NCBI RefSeq assembly: GCF_963664075.1
Contig: NZ_OY760916.1
Span: 4,250,710 to 4,314,709, forward strand
From: an uncultured Desulfobulbus sp.
GTDB lineage: Bacteria > Desulfobacterota > Desulfobulbia > Desulfobulbales > Desulfobulbaceae
Length of the DNA: 64,000 nucleotides
Direction of reading: 5' to 3'
In this document: piece after piece, positions 55,560-64,000 of the stretch
How positions within the stretch are numbered: position 1 is the first letter of the stretch
How the letters are laid out: every line of letters begins with the position of its first letter
The notes under the pieces: generated by a model
What the model was told of the DNA's origin: nothing
The model's database searches: none
What the model saw: the letters and a program-made list of their open reading frames with translations, nothing else
Program-made: the position numbers and the translations under genes

Positions 55560-58500
55560 ATGACACGTCGCGTTGCTGTAATCAGTTACGCCTTTCGTTT
55601 TCCAGGCACCGACAAAGAGTGTTTTTGGAAAGATCTGCTTGATGGACGTAATCTCATTACCGAGGTTCAAGCTGAACGATGGGCGCAGGAATCATTTCTT
55701 CATCCTAAGAAAAATCATCCAGGTACCAGTTACACCTTTGCCGCAGGCTCCATTGGCGATGTAAGTGGCTTTGATGCCCATTTTTTCGGCATATCGCCTC
55801 GGGAAGCCACCGTAATGGATCCCCAGCAGCGTTTACTTTTGGAGATGTCCTGGGAGGCTCTGGAAAATGGTGGAATCTGCCCATCCTCGCTTAAAGGCAG
55901 TAAGTGCGGAGTATTTATCGGTATTGCCAGTGCCGATTATTCCTACCGTTTATCTGACGATCTCAACAGTATCGACGCGTCGGTGGCCACAGGGAATACA
56001 GCCAGTATCGCGGCCAACCGTCTATCGTACGTCTTCGATCTCTGTGGACCGAGTATGGCCATCGACACCGCCTGCTCCTCCTCGTTGGTCGCCTTTCATC
56101 AGGCCTGTCGTTCGATTCTTTCTGGAGAAAGTGATCAGGCTCTCACCGGTGGCGTGAGTCTTCACCTCCATCCGTACGGATTTTTGACTTTTTCTAAGGC
56201 GTCCATGCTCTCTCCCCGGGGGATGTGCAGTGTATTTGATGCGGATGCCGATGGCTACGTGCGCTCTGAGGGGGGAGGCATCTTTTTTCTCAAGGAGTAT
56301 GAACAGGCCAAGGCAGATGGTGACCCAATTGTGGCAGTGGTGGGGGCAAGTGCCGTCAATGCTGATGGGCGCAAGACTGGCCTGACCGTGCCCAGTCCTA
56401 AGCGGCAGGCGGAGTTATTGCGTTTTGTCTATGCTCAGGCGGCTATTGAGCCAGAGAAACTAGATTATATCGAGGCCCACGGAACAGGAACGGCTGTTGG
56501 CGACCCTGTGGAGGTACGGGCAATTGGTGAAGCCCTGGGAGCTTGCCGTTCTTCCGGTCCGCTGCCGATCGGCTCGGTTAAGGGGAATCTAGGCCACCTG
56601 GAAGCCGCCTCAGGTGTGGCTGGTCTGGTGAAAGCTCTGCATTGTTTACGCCACCGATCCATTCCCGCATCTGTGGGGATGGATACACCGAACCCTAATA
56701 TTGATTTTGCTGCGCTCAATATCGACATTGTTACCAAGACGCGTTCGCTTAAGGCGAAAGGACCATTAACGGTCGGAATCAACTCCTTCGGTTTTGGTGG
56801 TGCAAACGCCCATGTTATTTTACAGACCCCTGGGGAGGCAGAAGGCTGTATTGCAGAGGAGAGTGCACGTATCGCTCCTTTGATTCTCTCTGCCCGCGAT
56901 AAAGACGCGCTCCCCGCCATGGCAAAAGCGTATGGGGAGTTGGTTCAGCTCAATACCGACTCGTACCCAACTATTGCCTATAATGCGTCTTTTCGGCGTG
57001 ATCGTTTGCCCCATGGGCTTGTTTGTTGGCCACAGAATGCAGCTCAGGCAGTCGCCATGCTTACCCAGGCTGCAGAAGAGGAAAATACACCGGGTCTTTT
57101 CAGTGCGACCGCGCTGGATGCTCCTTCCGGGTCGGCATTGATCTATTCCGGCAATGGATCGCAATGGGCCGGTATGGGGCAAGGGCTGTTTGTTGATCCA
57201 ATTTTTGCCGAGACAGTCGCAGAGATCGATACCTACTTTGAGCCGCTTGCCGGCTTTGCTCTTGGCGATGTGTTGGCACAGGCAAGTGAGGAAGATCGGT
57301 ATCAGTCCACTGAAATTGCGCAGCCCGCCCTCTTTGCGGTGCAGGTTGGGATCACCCGCATGCTTAAACATGCGGGAATAGTCCCGGTGGCGGTTGCCGG
57401 GCACAGTGTCGGTGAGGTGGCAGCGGCCTGGGCAGCCGGTATTCTTGATCTTAAGTCAGCAGTCTTTGTTATCTATCATCGCAGTCGCCTGCAGGGAACA
57501 ACCAAGGGACAGGGGCAGATGACGGCAGTGGGCATGAGTGGAGACGAGACCCAGGAGCTGCTGACATCGTTGGGACTTGCGCAAAAACTCGCTCTGGCCG
57601 GAAGTAATAGCTACCGAGGAGCGACCCTGGCCGGAGATCCTGATTCACTTGAGATCGTGGAAGCAGAGCTTGCCCGGCGGGAACTTTTTTATCGTCGTCT
57701 GGATCTGGATTACGCTTTTCACAGTCCTGTGATGGATCCCACCGAAGCGGGGGTCTATGAAGCTTTGGCTGATCTGCGTCCGCAGAAGGGCACTCTCCCC
57801 ATGTACTCCACGGTAACGGGGAAATGTATTGAGGGGACCGAACTTGGAGCAGAGTACTGGTGGTGGAATATTCGTCAACCGGTCCTCTTCCAGCGGGCGG
57901 TTGAAGCGATGCAGGCAGATGGTATCAACATTTTTATGGAGATTGGTCCACATCCTGTCCTGCGTAGTTATCTCAATGATTGTATCAGAGCCTCGAATGC
58001 AGAGGGAAGGGTAATCCCTACTCTAAAACGTGAGGATGACACCCCACTGCGGGTGATTGAGGCCTGCAGCCAGGCCCTGCTTGCCGGTGCGCCACTTGAC
58101 TGGTCGTGCTATTTTTCCGGTCCCCACCCTTTCATGCCGCTTCCCAACTATCCCTGGATGCGGGAGCGTTACTGGCACAGCCAGACGACAGAGGCTTATG
58201 GCACCCTGGATCGGCATAAGTTGCACCCGCTCTTGGGGTATTCGCTCCGTCAGCACAGACTCACCTGGGAAAATCAACTGGACACCCAATTGCTGCCCAG
58301 CCTGGCTGACCATGTGGTGGGCGATGCCACGGTTTTCCCCGGGACCGGTTATGCCGAGCTGGGGCTTGCCGCCGCCTTCGCATGGCAAGGACAGGAACTG
58401 ATTGAGATTGAGGATCTGGAAATCCGTTCACCGCTTCTTTTGGAAAGTGAGCGCTCGCAGCTTATCCAGGTGCAGATTCAGGAGAAGGATGGTAGCACCA

Positions 58501-61500
58501 TCATACAAGGACGGGGGCTGGGAGGAGAAGAACCCTGGACTGTACATGGCGTCTGTCGGATTCTGCAGGAACCCGGCGATCTGTTGTTGCGTGTGTCGGC
58601 CCCGACATTGCCCATTCGCCAACCTGACTTCAGCGGAGCCAGCCACCTGGGACTCACCAAGGTCGTGGGGTTGGACTACGGCCCAGCCTTTCAGTGTATC
58701 GATCACGGCTGGATCATAGATCATGAATCTGTGCTGGCGGTTTTACAGTTACCAGAGCATCTGGAGCAGGAAAATCAGCAGATGCACCTTCATCCGGCGT
58801 TGCTCGACTGCTCATTTCAGTTGATCATCCAACTCATGCGAGAACGGGTAGCCCTCAATGAAGGGGTAACCTTTATTCCTGTTCGCATGGGGCGTATTGC
58901 CTATCGTCAAGATACCGATCAAGCGGTGCTTGCACAGGTGAGGCTGCGCCGGTGGACCGAGCAATCTATCAGTGCCGATTTTACGTTGTTTGATGGGGAA
59001 GGTCAGGTCGTGGCCGTGATTCAGGAGGCTCGTTTTCGCAGAATCCGTTTACGCAAAGGAGCTGCAGATCGGTTACAACTGCTGAAAGAAGAGTGGGAGC
59101 CCATGCCCCTTGCTGGCAACATCTATGAGTCTCCCTTACTCTCTTTTAAACGGATTGAAGGGATCCTGAGTGAAGTTGCTGCCCGCATAGGTTTATCAGG
59201 CTCATCTCGCCGTTTCACCCAGGAGGTCGATCCGCTGTTGGATGTTCTCTGCGGAGCCTGGATCGGAGAGGCGTGTGGCCAGTTGGCTGGAAACGATGGG
59301 CTGATCAGCCAGGAAAAGATTGGAGAGTGGTGTGCAACTCAGCCTGCATTAACGCACTACATCAAGTATATACTGGAGCAGGGGCTTGAGGATCAGGGGC
59401 TGATTCAAACCTCTGATGGATATATCGTCCAAAGAGAGGAAGAGGACGCGGTTGCTGCTACCGATATCTGGAATAGTATGGTTGCTGATTATCCAGACTC
59501 CTTTTCTCTCGTCCATGGTGTTGGACAGATTGGTATGCACCTGGCGGAAATTGTCGAAGGAAGGCTGCTTTCCGGCGATATTTTTCCCCAGCGCACTTCT
59601 ATGGCAGCTCTTATTTGCCAGGTGTTGGGAGGCGAAGGAAAGCAGCGTTTAGGCCAGGCACTGCGTCAACTCGTTGAGCATGCTCTTAGGAAACTTCCCC
59701 AAGGGGCCCGTTTGGGAGTGGTTGAAATCGGTCGGGAAATCCCTACCCATGGGGCCGATATCTTGGCAGTTATGGATCCTCATTGCTGTGATTTTAGTTT
59801 TATAGGGACTGCTCCTGATTTTGCAGCTAAGACGCCTCTCTTGGAAGAGCGCTACCCGCATATGCGGGTTATAGCGCTCGAAGAGGAAGGGGAGCTGGTA
59901 ACGTCTCTCCCGCAAGGTTCGCTTGTGTTAGTGACGCTTGATTTTGTTACCTTGGCCGAGGCAACACAGGTGCTGACCCAGGCTCGTGCCTGTCTGCTCC
60001 CAGGAGGATCCCTGGTTGTCACAGGTATGCATCCAGCCAGGTGGATAGACTTTCTTTATGGTGGCCAGCCGGAGCACTGGCAGTTTTTCGGCAGCGATTC
60101 CAGCGGATCACGTCAAAACTCTGCACAATTCTGGATGCAGCAGTTGCAGAATCAGCAGCTGGCAAATTTGACGCAAGTAAATTTTTCTTCTGATACACTT
60201 TCAGGCCCCTATATGCTTGTAGGGCAGGCCACAGAGGGAATATTGCCGCCTCTCCAGAGTCCAGTTCAGGCAGGCCCGCGCTCGTGGATAATTTTGGCTG
60301 ATGAGCAAGGCATTTCCGCTTCTTTGGCGGACAAGCTCGCCACCGAATTACAGCGAAAAGGGGATATGGTGGTTGTTTCTCAGGCCGCAGGGGTAGAGGC
60401 ATTAAAGGGATTACTTAGGGAAACAACCCGTCGCTATGGAGAGCTTGACGGACTTCTTCTTCTTGCTGGTCTTTCTCAAGAGAGTGAACAAGAGGCCGTG
60501 GTCGAAGTCGAGCGGCAAACCAGACGTTGTGCAATGGCGGCACAGATTCTTCAGGCCTGCGAACAATGCAGTATTTCGACAACATGCTGGCTGGTGAGTG
60601 CTGGCGCTAGTGTACCGGGTACCCAGGCAAGCAATGTGCAGCGTCTTGGCTATGGTGATGCCCCCCTTTGGGGATTTGGGCGAACCCTGATCAACGAGGC
60701 GCTTGATCTTCGCGTACACTTGCTTGATCTCGCGCAGGTGGAAACTGCTGCAAGTATAGCTGCGCTTGTTCGCGAGCTTGATTGTCCCGATTCTGAGCAG
60801 GAGGTCTGCCTGACAGGTGAAGGAGCCCGCTATGTGCCCCGTTTACAGAGTGCCCCTCGCCAGGTAGAGCCTGCCATGGGAGACAGGGACCAGCAGGGGA
60901 TTATCCGTTTAGGTTTTTCTTTTGCTGGAAAGCTTGGGAATCTCTGCTGGCAGGAGCAACCGGTTGTTAGGCTGGGAGAGGATGAAGTTGAAGTTGAGGT
61001 GCATGCAACCGGCCTGAACTTCCGTGATCTGATGTTCACCTTGGGGCTGCTTTCCGAGGAGGCTATAGAAAATGGGTTTGCCGGTCCGACACTTGGTTTG
61101 GAGTTCTCCGGCGAGGTCGTTCGCGTTGGTTCGAGCGTGAACCATTGTGTTCCCGGTGATAAGGTGGTGGGTTTCGGCCCCTCCTGTTTTGCCGACCGAG
61201 TCATCACCAAGGCAACCGCAATTACTCATTTACCCCAGGGAATCTCCTTTGAGGCGGCTGCCACCATCCCCTGTACTTTTTTTACCGTGTACTATGCGCT
61301 TCATTATCTGGCTCAGTTGGAACCCGGTGAGCGGCTGTTGATTCACTGTGCTGCCGGTGGTGTTGGTATTGCAGCTGTCCAGATAGCCAAATGGATGGGG
61401 GCAGAAATTTATGTGACAGCTGGTTCTCGAGAAAAACGCGATTTTCTGCGATTACTGGGAGTTGAGCATATTTTTGATTCACGCAGCCTGGCTTATGCCG

Positions 61501-63188
61501 ATGATATTATGGAGGCCACAGGAGGGCAGGGAGTTGATGTGGTTCTCAATTCGCTGGCAGGTGAGGCGGTAAACCGTAATTTTCGTCTCTTGAAGCCTTT
61601 TGGCCGTTTTCTGGAGCTGGGGAAGCGTGATTTTTATGAAAACACGAAGATTGGACTGCGTCCATTTCGCAATAATATCAGTTATTTTGGTATTGATACC
61701 GATCAACTGATGTATGCTCGCCCCGAACTGACCCGACGTCTTTTTGCCGAGGTGATGGATTTGTTCAGTAATGGTATCCTCCACCCCTTGCCGTACAAGA
61801 CTTTTGAGGCGGAAGAAATTGTCGATGCCTTTCGCTACATGCAGCAGGCACGGCATATCGGAAAAATCGTGGTCACCTACCGCAATGGAATCAGGGAAGT
61901 TGTCCAGCCTGTTCCTGCTCAGCAAGAAAGTTTATGCTTTCCGGAAGAAGCGAGTTTTCTCGTGACGGGTGGTTTAGGAGGCTTTGGTCTAAGAACCGCT
62001 CGCTGGTTAGTTGAAAAAGGTGCCCGCCACCTGGTGCTGATCAGCCGAAGTGGACCTGTTTCCGATGAGGCTCAGGTCGCCCTGGAGGAATTCAGACAGG
62101 GAAAGGTGGAGGTGTTGGCCCAAGCCTGTGATGTCACCGATCGAGCAGGGATGAAGCTGCTTCTTGAAAAAATTGATGCGACGATGCCACCTCTGGCGGG
62201 GATTGTTCATGCCGCCACTGTGATTGATGATGGTCTGATTCGCACCATGGATGAAGCGCAGATTCAAAAAGTGATGGGGCCCAAGGTTCTCGGTGCCTAT
62301 AATCTCCATCAGTTGACCCTGGAGCAGGCCCTGGATTTCTTTATTCTTTTTTCCTCGGCTACAACGCTTTTCGGTAATCCCGGCCAAGGCAATTACGTGG
62401 CAGCCAACTCCGCCCTGGAAGCTCTGGCCCACGAGCGAAGAGAAGCCGGTCTTGCCGCAACCTGTGTGCGCTGGGGGGCCATTGAGGATGTTGGCTTTCT
62501 TGCCCGCAATACAGAAATCCGTGATGCCCTTCAAGGAAGAATGGGTGGTTCCACCATAGAATCCACAGCAGCGTTGGAAATCCTTGAGAATTTATTGCTG
62601 ACCAATCGGTCAGGATTTGGGGTGATGGAGATTGACTGGCGGGCGCTCTCCCGTTTTCTCCCCAGTGCATCCAGTCCTAAATTCATGGAGCTGGCCCGCA
62701 CCAGTGGCAAGGGAGATGCGGATGATGGCGATGCCGATGCCCTCCAGCGGATGTTGGAAGAACTCTCTGAAGAAGAGTTGCTACAAGTCTGTATTGATAT
62801 GCTCAGGAGTGAGGTTGCGGAAATTCTGCGCATGGCTCCAGACAAGCTTGACCCGACTCGATCAATGTATGACATGGGGCTTGATTCACTGATGGGAGTG
62901 GAATTGGTAGGGGCCCTGGAATCCCGTTTTGGCATTCGCTTGCCAGTCTTGATTCTGAGTCAGAATCCGACCATTACCAAATTGGCAGAATATATAATCT
63001 CACAGCTTCGAGGGACAGATGGAGAAGATGAAACAGGCGGAGAACAGGAGTCACTGGCTCAGCAGGTACAACATCTTTCCGATCAACATGGTACAGAGAC
63101 CAACATCAATGTTGAGGAACTGACCAAAAATCTCCAGGATAACGGGGCAGGAACAACTTCACGGATAATTCAATCTGATGTCGAATAG
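55560..63188 (+). CDS. Fully reducing iterative-type type I polyketide synthase
   Basis: 2542 residues, order KS-AT-DH-pseudoMT-ER-KR-ACP. KS: DTACSSSLVAFH with Cys172, EAHGTGT with His307 and His346 of GNLGHLEAAS. AT: GHSVGEVAAAW with Ser616 and a YAFHSP specificity motif (malonyl more likely than methylmalonyl). DH: His918 in DHVVGDATVFPG and Asp1083 of LLDCSFQ. A degenerate methyltransferase-like region at about 1190-1560 has lost the SAM glycine loop (VEIGREIP near 1389). ER: AAGGVGIAAVQIAK at 1931. KR: TGGLGGFG at 2136, Ser2266 and Tyr2279. ACP: DSL with Ser2443. No thioesterase; release is probably by the PLP enzyme encoded next, whose ATG overlaps. A saturated chain is expected. Confidence 0.95.
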   Translation: MTRRVAVISYAFRFPGTDKECFWKDLLDGRNLITEVQAERWAQESFLHPKKNHPGTSYTFAAGSIGDVSGFDAHFFGISPREATVMDPQQRLLLEMSWEALENGGICPSSLKGSKCGVFIGIASADYSYRLSDDLNSIDASVATGNTASIAANRLSYVFDLCGPSMAIDTACSSSLVAFHQACRSILSGESDQALTGGVSLHLHPYGFLTFSKASMLSPRGMCSVFDADADGYVRSEGGGIFFLKEYEQAKADGDPIVAVVGASAVNADGRKTGLTVPSPKRQAELLRFVYAQAAIEPEKLDYIEAHGTGTAVGDPVEVRAIGEALGACRSSGPLPIGSVKGNLGHLEAASGVAGLVKALHCLRHRSIPASVGMDTPNPNIDFAALNIDIVTKTRSLKAKGPLTVGINSFGFGGANAHVILQTPGEAEGCIAEESARIAPLILSARDKDALPAMAKAYGELVQLNTDSYPTIAYNASFRRDRLPHGLVCWPQNAAQAVAMLTQAAEEENTPGLFSATALDAPSGSALIYSGNGSQWAGMGQGLFVDPIFAETVAEIDTYFEPLAGFALGDVLAQASEEDRYQSTEIAQPALFAVQVGITRMLKHAGIVPVAVAGHSVGEVAAAWAAGILDLKSAVFVIYHRSRLQGTTKGQGQMTAVGMSGDETQELLTSLGLAQKLALAGSNSYRGATLAGDPDSLEIVEAELARRELFYRRLDLDYAFHSPVMDPTEAGVYEALADLRPQKGTLPMYSTVTGKCIEGTELGAEYWWWNIRQPVLFQRAVEAMQADGINIFMEIGPHPVLRSYLNDCIRASNAEGRVIPTLKREDDTPLRVIEACSQALLAGAPLDWSCYFSGPHPFMPLPNYPWMRERYWHSQTTEAYGTLDRHKLHPLLGYSLRQHRLTWENQLDTQLLPSLADHVVGDATVFPGTGYAELGLAAAFAWQGQELIEIEDLEIRSPLLLESERSQLIQVQIQEKDGSTIIQGRGLGGEEPWTVHGVCRILQEPGDLLLRVSAPTLPIRQPDFSGASHLGLTKVVGLDYGPAFQCIDHGWIIDHESVLAVLQLPEHLEQENQQMHLHPALLDCSFQLIIQLMRERVALNEGVTFIPVRMGRIAYRQDTDQAVLAQVRLRRWTEQSISADFTLFDGEGQVVAVIQEARFRRIRLRKGAADRLQLLKEEWEPMPLAGNIYESPLLSFKRIEGILSEVAARIGLSGSSRRFTQEVDPLLDVLCGAWIGEACGQLAGNDGLISQEKIGEWCATQPALTHYIKYILEQGLEDQGLIQTSDGYIVQREEEDAVAATDIWNSMVADYPDSFSLVHGVGQIGMHLAEIVEGRLLSGDIFPQRTSMAALICQVLGGEGKQRLGQALRQLVEHALRKLPQGARLGVVEIGREIPTHGADILAVMDPHCCDFSFIGTAPDFAAKTPLLEERYPHMRVIALEEEGELVTSLPQGSLVLVTLDFVTLAEATQVLTQARACLLPGGSLVVTGMHPARWIDFLYGGQPEHWQFFGSDSSGSRQNSAQFWMQQLQNQQLANLTQVNFSSDTLSGPYMLVGQATEGILPPLQSPVQAGPRSWIILADEQGISASLADKLATELQRKGDMVVVSQAAGVEALKGLLRETTRRYGELDGLLLLAGLSQESEQEAVVEVERQTRRCAMAAQILQACEQCSISTTCWLVSAGASVPGTQASNVQRLGYGDAPLWGFGRTLINEALDLRVHLLDLAQVETAASIAALVRELDCPDSEQEVCLTGEGARYVPRLQSAPRQVEPAMGDRDQQGIIRLGFSFAGKLGNLCWQEQPVVRLGEDEVEVEVHATGLNFRDLMFTLGLLSEEAIENGFAGPTLGLEFSGEVVRVGSSVNHCVPGDKVVGFGPSCFADRVITKATAITHLPQGISFEAAATIPCTFFTVYYALHYLAQLEPGERLLIHCAAGGVGIAAVQIAKWMGAEIYVTAGSREKRDFLRLLGVEHIFDSRSLAYADDIMEATGGQGVDVVLNSLAGEAVNRNFRLLKPFGRFLELGKRDFYENTKIGLRPFRNNISYFGIDTDQLMYARPELTRRLFAEVMDLFSNGILHPLPYKTFEAEEIVDAFRYMQQARHIGKIVVTYRNGIREVVQPVPAQQESLCFPEEASFLVTGGLGGFGLRTARWLVEKGARHLVLISRSGPVSDEAQVALEEFRQGKVEVLAQACDVTDRAGMKLLLEKIDATMPPLAGIVHAATVIDDGLIRTMDEAQIQKVMGPKVLGAYNLHQLTLEQALDFFILFSSATTLFGNPGQGNYVAANSALEALAHERREAGLAATCVRWGAIEDVGFLARNTEIRDALQGRMGGSTIESTAALEILENLLLTNRSGFGVMEIDWRALSRFLPSASSPKFMELARTSGKGDADDGDADALQRMLEELSEEELLQVCIDMLRSEVAEILRMAPDKLDPTRSMYDMGLDSLMGVELVGALESRFGIRLPVLILSQNPTITKLAEYIISQLRGTDGEDETGGEQESLAQQVQHLSDQHGTETNINVEELTKNLQDNGAGTTSRIIQSDVE

Positions 63189-64000
63189 AAAACAGCCCGG
63201 GCTGACAGCCCAACTGAAAGATAAACTCATTCAACAGGCGCTTGAGAAAAAACTCAAGCGTGCTGAAAAGAGCGATATCGTCGCCTCTCCCACGAGGCGA
63301 TCCGGTGCTGCTCTGGAAAATATTTCGGAACAGTTCTGTTCATTCAGTCTCCATCCTGGTTATCAACAGATCCGCATTATTAATGGCGGAGCTGAGCGTA
63401 TGGGCATTGAAAATCCCTTTTTTCGCCCCCATGGGGGGGCGGCTGGGGCAACTACGATTATTAAAGGCAAACAGTACCTCAACTACGCCAGTTATAATTA
63501 TCTGGACTGTTCCGGGGATCCGCAGGTTAACAGGGCGGCCAAAGAGGCGATTGACCTGTATGGTACCTCTGTGTCTGCCAGCCGTCTTGTCTCCGGTGAA
63601 CGACCTGTGCACCGCCAGCTGGAGAAAGCACTGGCTCAATTTTACGAGGTGGATGAGGCCATTGTTCTGGTCAGCGGCCATGCAACCAATGTCACCACCA
63701 TTGGCTATCTTTTCGGGCCACGAGATCTGGTCCTCCATGATGATCTGATTCATAACTCCATCCTCCAGGGGATCAGTCTTTCAGGCGCGCGGAGACTGCC
63801 TTTTGCCCATAACGATTGGGAGGCCCTGGAGACGATTCTCGCCGAGCAGCGGCACCATTTTGAGCGCGTCTTGATAGTGGTGGAGGGGTTGTACAGTATG
63901 GATGGGGATTACCCCGAGCTCCCCCGCTACATCGAGTTGAAGAAGAAATATAAAGCTTTTCTTATGGTGGATGAGGCGCATTCACTGGGAGTTATGGGAA
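63178..64000 (+). CDS. Alpha-oxoamine synthase (PLP-dependent, 5' part only)
   Basis: 274 codons to the window edge, with no stop. The ATG overlaps the PKS stop region (ATGTCGAATAG), giving translational coupling. A unique N-terminal extension of about 90 residues precedes the fold: YLNYASYNYLDCSGDPQVNR, GTSVSASRLVSGERPVHRQL, ALAQFYEVDEAIVLVSGHA and VVEGLYSMDGDYPELPRY, then MVDEAHSLGVMG with the PLP-pyridine Asp. These are the marks of the KBL/BioF/SPT alpha-oxoamine synthases. The catalytic lysine lies beyond the edge. It should condense an amino acid with the acyl-ACP of the PKS with loss of CO2, releasing a 2-amino ketone. The amino acid cannot be predicted. A BioF role is less likely given the coupling. 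Confidence 0.88.
   Translation, partial: MSNRKQPGLTAQLKDKLIQQALEKKLKRAEKSDIVASPTRRSGAALENISEQFCSFSLHPGYQQIRIINGGAERMGIENPFFRPHGGAAGATTIIKGKQYLNYASYNYLDCSGDPQVNRAAKEAIDLYGTSVSASRLVSGERPVHRQLEKALAQFYEVDEAIVLVSGHATNVTTIGYLFGPRDLVLHDDLIHNSILQGISLSGARRLPFAHNDWEALETILAEQRHHFERVLIVVEGLYSMDGDYPELPRYIELKKKYKAFLMVDEAHSLGVMG

Follow-up and report, generated by a model that had tools for sequence, protein, structure and literature searches.

We describe a biosynthetic gene pair of an uncultured Desulfobulbus species, a fully reducing polyketide synthase (PKS) followed by an alpha-oxoamine synthase (AOS), whose lipid product may anchor a capsule to the cell. The window, that is, the whole 64,000-nucleotide stretch analysed, corresponds to C1:4250710-4314709 of a 4.78 Mb single-contig genome, and the window features named here all lie on its plus strand. 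The PKS gene (55560..63188) opens with ATG and encodes a single-module type I fully reducing enzyme of 2542 aa, SgaA/RkpA/WcbR-like, with ketosynthase, acyltransferase, dehydratase, enoylreductase, ketoreductase and acyl carrier protein domains in this order (KS-AT-DH-ER-KR-ACP). The KS (55566..56678; PF00109/PF02801) carries DTACSSS at residue 169, EAHGTGT at 305 and GNLGHLE at 342; the AT (57141..58061; Pfam match) carries GHSVGE at 614 and YAFH at 718. The ER (60975..61874; PF08240/PF00107/PF13602, ADH_N and ADH_zinc_N) contains AAGGVG, the KR (61950..62486; PF08659) GGLGGFG and GQGNYVAAN, and the ACP (62802..62996; PF00550) GLDSL at residue 2440. Both halves of the DH are recognised (58224..59048; PF21089 and PF14765); a motif search with the strict pattern HxxxGxxxxP gave no match in the PKS, where the site reads HVVGDATVFP, with the histidine kept and the glycine shifted, and the aspartate motif HPALLD stands further on. 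We take these motifs under the names customarily given to them in PKS domains, and the AT, by its motif, to be of malonyl type. A Pfam scan of the PKS found no thioesterase and no scoring match to a methyltransferase family.

The AOS gene begins inside the PKS gene: its ATG occupies 63178-63180 and the PKS stop codon TAG 63186-63188, giving an 11-base overlap (63178..63188) that suggests translational coupling. The window edge cuts this SgaB/RkpG-like gene, leaving the first 274 of 450 aa inside (63178..64000), with the remainder reaching the equivalent of 64530; the complete gene is C1:4313887-4315239. The lysine binding pyridoxal phosphate (K300, in GTLSK) is preserved, as is the DEAHS motif, and neither differs among the five sequences aligned, that of the window enzyme being one of them. 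The AOS of Desulfobulbus rhabdoformis (L009) is 94% identical to it, which places the host in or near Desulfobulbus. In a quick tree with long reference branches, 42 PKS-linked AOS rows, RkpG and Pseudomonas orthologues among them, stand apart from five references (BioF, Kbl and SPT) with an SH-aLRT value of 97, and the window enzyme falls with the former. On the NCBIfam SPT models it stays under every cut-off (NF047600, 291.9 of 640 bits; NF047599, 249.7 of 500; NF047603, 190.1 of 670). It is hardly credible that the AOS is a BioF-like biotin enzyme beside an unrelated PKS: its best NCBIfam score is that of bioF (322.9 bits), but this lies under the cut-off of 426.45, and the genome has a better match at C1:4022060-4023151 (426.0 bits, narrowly below the same value), which clusters with BioF of E. 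coli, adjoins a BioG-like open reading frame recognised by eye and is probably the BioF of this genome. A profile scan of the PKS, the AOS and the eight genes past it revealed no biotin gene, and relatives show ACP-AOS and PKS-AOS fusions. The BioF reading was rejected on cut-off, gene context and tree.

Close coupling of the two genes is also seen in relatives. Scanning a genome collection with an AOS alignment gave 484 relatives among 552 matched stretches, of which the best 80 were retained; 78 of these 80 loci have a PKS match, the other two being L018, a short contig, and L068. Among 77 PKS-AOS pairs, with start codons chosen by a script, 17 overlap (two of them, L011 and L066, probably through misread frames), 54 are separated by 0-30 bases and 6 by 31-150, so that 71 overlap or lie within 30 bases. 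PKS tails are acidic in 75 of the 77, the tails of L011 and L066 probably having been read in the wrong frame, and AOS N-termini are basic in 76. From these charge counts we guess that the acidic C-terminal tail of the window PKS (62997..63185) and the basic AOS N-terminus may form a docking pair. Many related PKS C-termini close with a few residues of the form R-[LMI]-I-[HDNEQT], which may belong to this element. Hand-over of the chain from ACP to AOS is supported by fusions, since in three relatives of the host (L006, L007 and L008) an AOS at 54-56% identity sits inside a longer single frame. By eye, the AOS of L006 (genome G009) stands behind an acyl-ligase and an ACP, with an apparent radical SAM gene adjoining; the frames of L007 (G024) and L008 (G019) span 925 and 810 aa. 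On plasmid p3 of Planktothrix agardhii the AOS match is the terminal part of one 7.6-kb gene that carries a PKS annotation (L171:5608-13206); a fatty acyl-AMP ligase and glycosyltransferases are encoded nearby, and no gene in the 25-kb stretch has a capsule annotation.

Past the window edge, the gene directly after the AOS encodes a 280-aa E2-like protein that matches PF00198, the family of catalytic domains from 2-oxoacid dehydrogenase acyltransferases (L003:2247-3089), and no thioesterase occurs among the scanned proteins. Convergent to the pair lie, in order, genes for a 508-aa membrane protein of the sulfatase superfamily (LtaS-like), a 258-aa short-chain dehydrogenase/reductase (SDR), a 425-aa KpsS-like protein, a 345-aa half-size KpsC-like protein, an adenosine 5'-phosphosulfate (APS) kinase, a UDP-glucose dehydrogenase and, at 680 aa, another KpsC-like protein, after which glycosyltransferases follow; further on there are a WcbI-family protein (PF18588), a cytidylyltransferase, a Poly_export protein and an ABC transporter pair. 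By its predicted gene products this is an ABC-transporter-type capsule locus. The D. rhabdoformis locus (L009; strain DSM 8777) likewise gives matches for PKS, AOS, E2-like protein, LtaS-like protein, SDR, KpsS and KpsC. The KpsS/KpsC-like proteins match Capsule_synth (PF05159) at 1.1e-76, 6.6e-43 and 2.1e-84; on the strict NCBIfam model NF050054 the KpsS of the window host reaches 302.7 bits, under the cut-off of 600, and is therefore called KpsS-like. A sequence search found no solved relative of KpsS. The SDR matches solved structures as a general SDR, so its role as 3-ketosphinganine reductase is taken from work on Pseudomonas (PMC12134224).

The 508-aa neighbour is a putative phosphoglycerol transferase of the LtaS/GacH type. 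Its sequence profile and fold match GacH, LtaP and LtaS, the fold having been compared through the predicted structure of the D. rhabdoformis orthologue, which is 77% identical to the window-host protein. E231, T273, D454 and H455 are invariant in 28 LtaS-like sequences, and we take them to be the catalytic Glu, Thr and Asp-His set of LtaS. GacH, LtaP and LtaS act in Gram-positive cell walls; the likeness to them lies in sequence and fold, whereas the proposed acceptor in the window host is sphinganine or a capsule terminus.

The PKS-AOS pair itself is not new, and with no thioesterase and a single-module reducing PKS directly before the AOS it fits the SgaAB/RkpA-RkpG type. As published in 2025 (Nat Commun), SgaAB, with SgaC, makes sphinganines in Pseudomonas fluorescens MYb115; SgaB takes L-serine almost exclusively in vitro, over alanine and glycine; C24-C28 sphinganines vanish in both sga deletions; and an SDR whose locus tag stands five places from that of the AOS is named as the probable 3-ketosphinganine reductase (PMC12134224). 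SgaAB is framed there as a secondary-metabolite cluster for host interaction; the sections consulted assign its lipids a role in the host and mention none in the envelope of the producer, and no word beginning with "capsul" occurs in the main text (PMC12134224). Our Pseudomonas relatives include this cluster and orthologues of SgaA: the sgaA start cloning primer fits the PKS start of L026 and L056 without mismatch, L056 also takes the sgaA end primer with a single mismatch, and for the sgaB end primer L038 is the only match, with four mismatches. These orthologous loci share the PKS directly followed by the AOS, together with LtaS-like, KpsS and KpsC genes, and the fifth gene in L090 and L056 is an SDR between the LtaS-like gene and KpsS; they differ in having PhyH and GNAT genes where the window host has the E2-like acyltransferase.

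In Sinorhizobium meliloti the rkp-1 region (rkpA, G, H, I, J; L089) likewise clusters PKS, AOS, SDR, LtaS-like protein and KpsS, and its PKS and AOS genes overlap as well, but in the window genome the LtaS-SDR-KpsS group is convergent to the pair. Identities to the window-host proteins are 34% for the PKS (over 98%), 50% for the AOS, 29% for the SDR, 30% for the LtaS-like protein and 38% for KpsS. We take the SDR, LtaS-like and KpsS-like proteins to correspond to RkpH, RkpI and RkpJ of the rkp-1 module. In the Burkholderia wcbR-type capsule genes, too, a PKS belongs to the capsule cluster, and the window host shares the WcbI-family protein; the sequence comparison on this side covers one plasmid of Paraburkholderia dioscoreae, and wcbR is likened by description. 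Off-loading of a polyketide by decarboxylative condensation is familiar from Fum1/Fum8 of fumonisin and from the AOSs of prodiginine-type pathways; the release chemistry is alike by description, but organisms and context are others. wcbR/rkpA has been described as a type I PKS, and the Swf-type sponge PKS was rejected as a counterpart, its partners (reductase-sulphotransferase, radical SAM) being different (PMC3908369). In E. coli K5, KpsS puts the first 3-deoxy-D-manno-octulosonic acid (Kdo) on the glycerol of (lyso)phosphatidylglycerol and KpsC extends it (PMC7694667, PMC12220298); the same Kdo transferase family (PF05159) adjoins the window pair.

An earlier note on this DNA had described a 2542-residue reducing PKS without thioesterase whose stop overlaps the start of a pyridoxal-phosphate enzyme, and both observations are borne out, the DH pattern not being strict. 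Its proposal of release by the AOS to a sphingoid base is supported by the tree, by the missed BioF and SPT cut-offs and by the serine chemistry of SgaB (PMC12134224). Its chemistry is probably right: release of the polyketide most likely takes place when the AOS joins it to an amino acid in a decarboxylative condensation, as predicted from relatives of the enzyme. The note was wrong that no pathway with such a pair had been described, as the pair is already in print as SgaAB, rkpA/rkpG and wcbR.

The association with capsule genes extends well beyond Desulfobulbus. KpsS or KpsC occurs in 44 of 54 related loci, the LtaS-like gene in 42 and the SDR in 40; these 54 have at least 9 kb past the AOS, the 26 loci with less than 9 kb downstream being set aside, and matches anywhere in the fetched stretch count. 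For nine of the ten loci lacking KpsS/KpsC, a KpsS lies elsewhere in the genome, in two cases at only 34% identity. We further sampled 329 genomes, spread evenly over the class to which a Collimonas relative belongs (thresholds E<=1e-90 for AOS, 1e-20 for KpsS and 1e-40 for the LtaS-like protein), of which 12 carry the AOS, 16 KpsS and 10 the LtaS-like protein, eight of the latter at 1.4e-99 or better, a line set after the list had been seen (next match 1.3e-49). All eight strong LtaS-like genomes have KpsS and seven have the AOS, whereas AOS and LtaS-like matches are both absent (0/8 each) from the other eight KpsS genomes. A strong LtaS-like match occurs in 7/7 genomes with AOS and KpsS versus 0/5 with the AOS only; the LtaS-like protein therefore tracks KpsS rather than the AOS alone. 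Fisher tests, which ignore shared descent, give 4e-12 (eight strong) or 2e-10 (all ten) for LtaS-like protein against KpsS, and 1.6e-4 for KpsS clade against LtaS-like protein.

The clades are those of a tree of 51 KpsS (49 different), in which the KpsS of the eight genomes with neither AOS nor LtaS-like match are parted, as an AOS-free clade, from 43 others by a branch with SH-aLRT 100. These 43 come from AOS genomes or from genome G595, and most entered the tree via the AOS and are so enriched by sampling, although the even sample alone splits 8/8. L009, L016, L020 and L021 gave no usable row, two rows are second copies, and no E. coli KpsS is included. On the NCBIfam KpsS model six of the AOS-free clade score 381-450 bits and five of the other, the window's included, 258-303, none of those scored in either clade reaching 600.

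A capsule gene cluster opens with this pair, a position suggesting that the lipid product anchors the capsule to the cell. On its ACP the PKS would assemble an acyl chain that is saturated and very long. The AOS would condense this with serine to 3-ketosphinganine, the downstream SDR would reduce it to sphinganine, and the LtaS/GacH-like membrane enzyme would move phosphoglycerol from phosphatidylglycerol onto sphinganine. Phosphoglycerol-sphinganine would offer the same glycerol phosphate as phosphatidylglycerol on another lipid, and the lipid of the capsule terminus would receive its first Kdo residues from the adjacent KpsS and KpsC. By analogy with LtaS, the LtaS-like enzyme would act on the outer side of the inner membrane and KpsS on its inner side, so two variants are conceivable, both compatible with the tracking of KpsS by the LtaS-like protein: phosphoglycerol-sphinganine may flip inward and be primed by KpsS, or the chain may be begun on phosphatidylglycerol and the LtaS-like enzyme may, after export, move glycerophosphate-Kdo-capsule from diacylglycerol onto sphinganine. 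Published work on orthologues has demonstrated the AOS chemistry and the sphinganine products, and the present analysis adds gene content, orthology, fold and co-occurrence; we infer the use of serine and the length of the chain for the window host, as well as the transfer of the headgroup and the function as an anchor. We give a probability of roughly 55% to the reading that the phosphoglycerol-sphinganine of this cluster forms the lipid end of the capsule, where E. coli has (lyso)phosphatidylglycerol.

Several points weigh against this reading. The LtaS-like enzyme and KpsS would be expected to act on opposite membrane faces, which is its weak point, and phosphoethanolamine transferases (Foldseek rank 7) and sulfatases have the same fold as the LtaS-like protein, so the headgroup is not fixed by the fold. 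The E2-like and GNAT acyltransferases are left unexplained by the scheme. No KpsS was found in the Accumulibacter genome of L032, nor in the Acidobacteriaceae genome of L037, a locus outside the set of 54. Among the 329 genomes, G595 has KpsS and the LtaS-like protein with only a BioF, beside BioB, and no AOS; the weaker LtaS-like matches G560 (1.3e-49) and G636 (2.6e-43) accompany neither KpsS nor AOS; and five of the 12 AOS genomes lack both KpsS and an LtaS-like match, which shows that the sphingoid module and capsules do not always go together. Shared descent, the line between strong and weak matches and the enrichment of the KpsS tree, as mentioned above, count on the same side. A 2005 paper reportedly described, by its title, a phospholipid anchor on the K-polysaccharide of S. 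meliloti 1021. Such an anchor is also stated elsewhere for this strain (PMC7902896), although rkp-1 is reported to be active in it. The species heavier by 154 Da in Pseudomonas were assigned "most likely" as phosphoglycerol-sphinganines by mass only (PMC12134224).

Other fates of the lipid have to be considered. The earlier note had thought of a free membrane lipid or a signal, and the Pseudomonas study takes the product for a free sphingoid membrane lipid or a host-active secondary metabolite (PMC12134224), the capsule neighbourhood then reflecting shared inheritance or regulation. Free sphinganines and probable phosphoglycerol (PG)-sphingolipids are indeed found in Pseudomonas cells (PMC12134224), the five AOS genomes without KpsS fit such a lipid, and L152 has PKS, AOS and SDR with no capsule match in its 20 kb stretch. 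We nevertheless consider this unlikely: neighbouring genes point to a capsule lipid, AOS and KpsS co-occur even when unlinked (contigs 13 and 5, respectively, in G609; 7 and 4 in G477), the KpsS of AOS genomes forms its own clade, and rkp-1 has been reported to be necessary for the K-antigen.

Alternatively, the lipid may carry the capsule only for a time, while it is assembled or exported, as a substitute for undecaprenol that is removed before or at the surface; the rhizobial literature may suggest this in speaking of a lipid carrier with a part in secretion (PMC4881576) or of a "lipid carrier or anchor" (PMC3557214). This appears rather improbable, because the KpsS/KpsC capsule of E. coli K5 retains its lipid terminus (PMC7694667) and an LtaS-like transferase suits a permanent headgroup. 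A deoxy-sphingoid amino ketone, formed with alanine or glycine and not serine, would allow no phosphoglycerol at C1. AOS families vary in their amino acid, and the substrate of the window AOS is a prediction, but the phosphoglycerol transferase needs the serine-derived hydroxyl. With the near-exclusive use of L-serine by SgaB (PMC12134224), we regard such a product as very improbable.

Returning to the sphingolipid anchor, the rkp-1 lipid carrier idea and the SgaAB sphinganines are old, and what is new is joining them as a capsule anchor. The shared gene neighbourhood connects the two, so that each can be put to the test in laboratory strains; what most deserves it is the capsule link, which is testable and not proven. 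We found no published link of PKS-AOS sphinganines to capsule anchoring in a search outside which most subscription papers fell, the 1997 rkpGHIJ paper included, and the accessible literature gave no identity for the rkp-1 lipid. More tentatively, and a little short of an even chance, Gram-negative ABC-transporter capsules may have two anchor types, one phosphatidylglycerol and the other a polyketide-derived phosphoglycerol-sphinganine (PKS, AOS, SDR, LtaS-like protein) with its own KpsS clade, spread over Pseudomonas, rhizobia, methanotrophs, Burkholderiales, Thiothrix and Desulfobulbus. If so, many bacteria not counted as sphingolipid producers carry sphingolipid-anchored capsules. An anchor of this kind would change the view of how a large share of Gram-negative capsules attach and of where bacterial sphingolipids occur.

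Some further features of these loci deserve mention. The half-size KpsC-like protein (L003:6596-7633) is a neighbour of KpsS, while the locus also encodes a full-length KpsC further on; at the same place as the half-size protein L010, L021 and L060 likewise match KpsC over only 40-47%. The APS kinase inside the capsule locus (L003:7655-8257) possibly serves a sulfated capsule, and the stretch L183:8763-15394 of the host capsule locus holds three transposase-like genes, two of them with weak matches. Clusters that seem sphingoid-like and capsule-free occur in L152 (G641), L153 (G352) and L155 (G579), which have AOS and SDR and in part a PKS; their genomes gave no match to KpsS or to the LtaS-like protein. 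The acyltransferase near the AOS varies: it is E2-like in three of the 80 loci (Desulfobulbus, Collimonas and a betaproteobacterial metagenome-assembled genome), a GNAT match is found in 21 of the 80, all Pseudomonas (e.g., L056:14629-15312), and Paraburkholderia has a different GNAT (L091:15363-16046). N-acylation of the sphingoid amine is one guess for its function.

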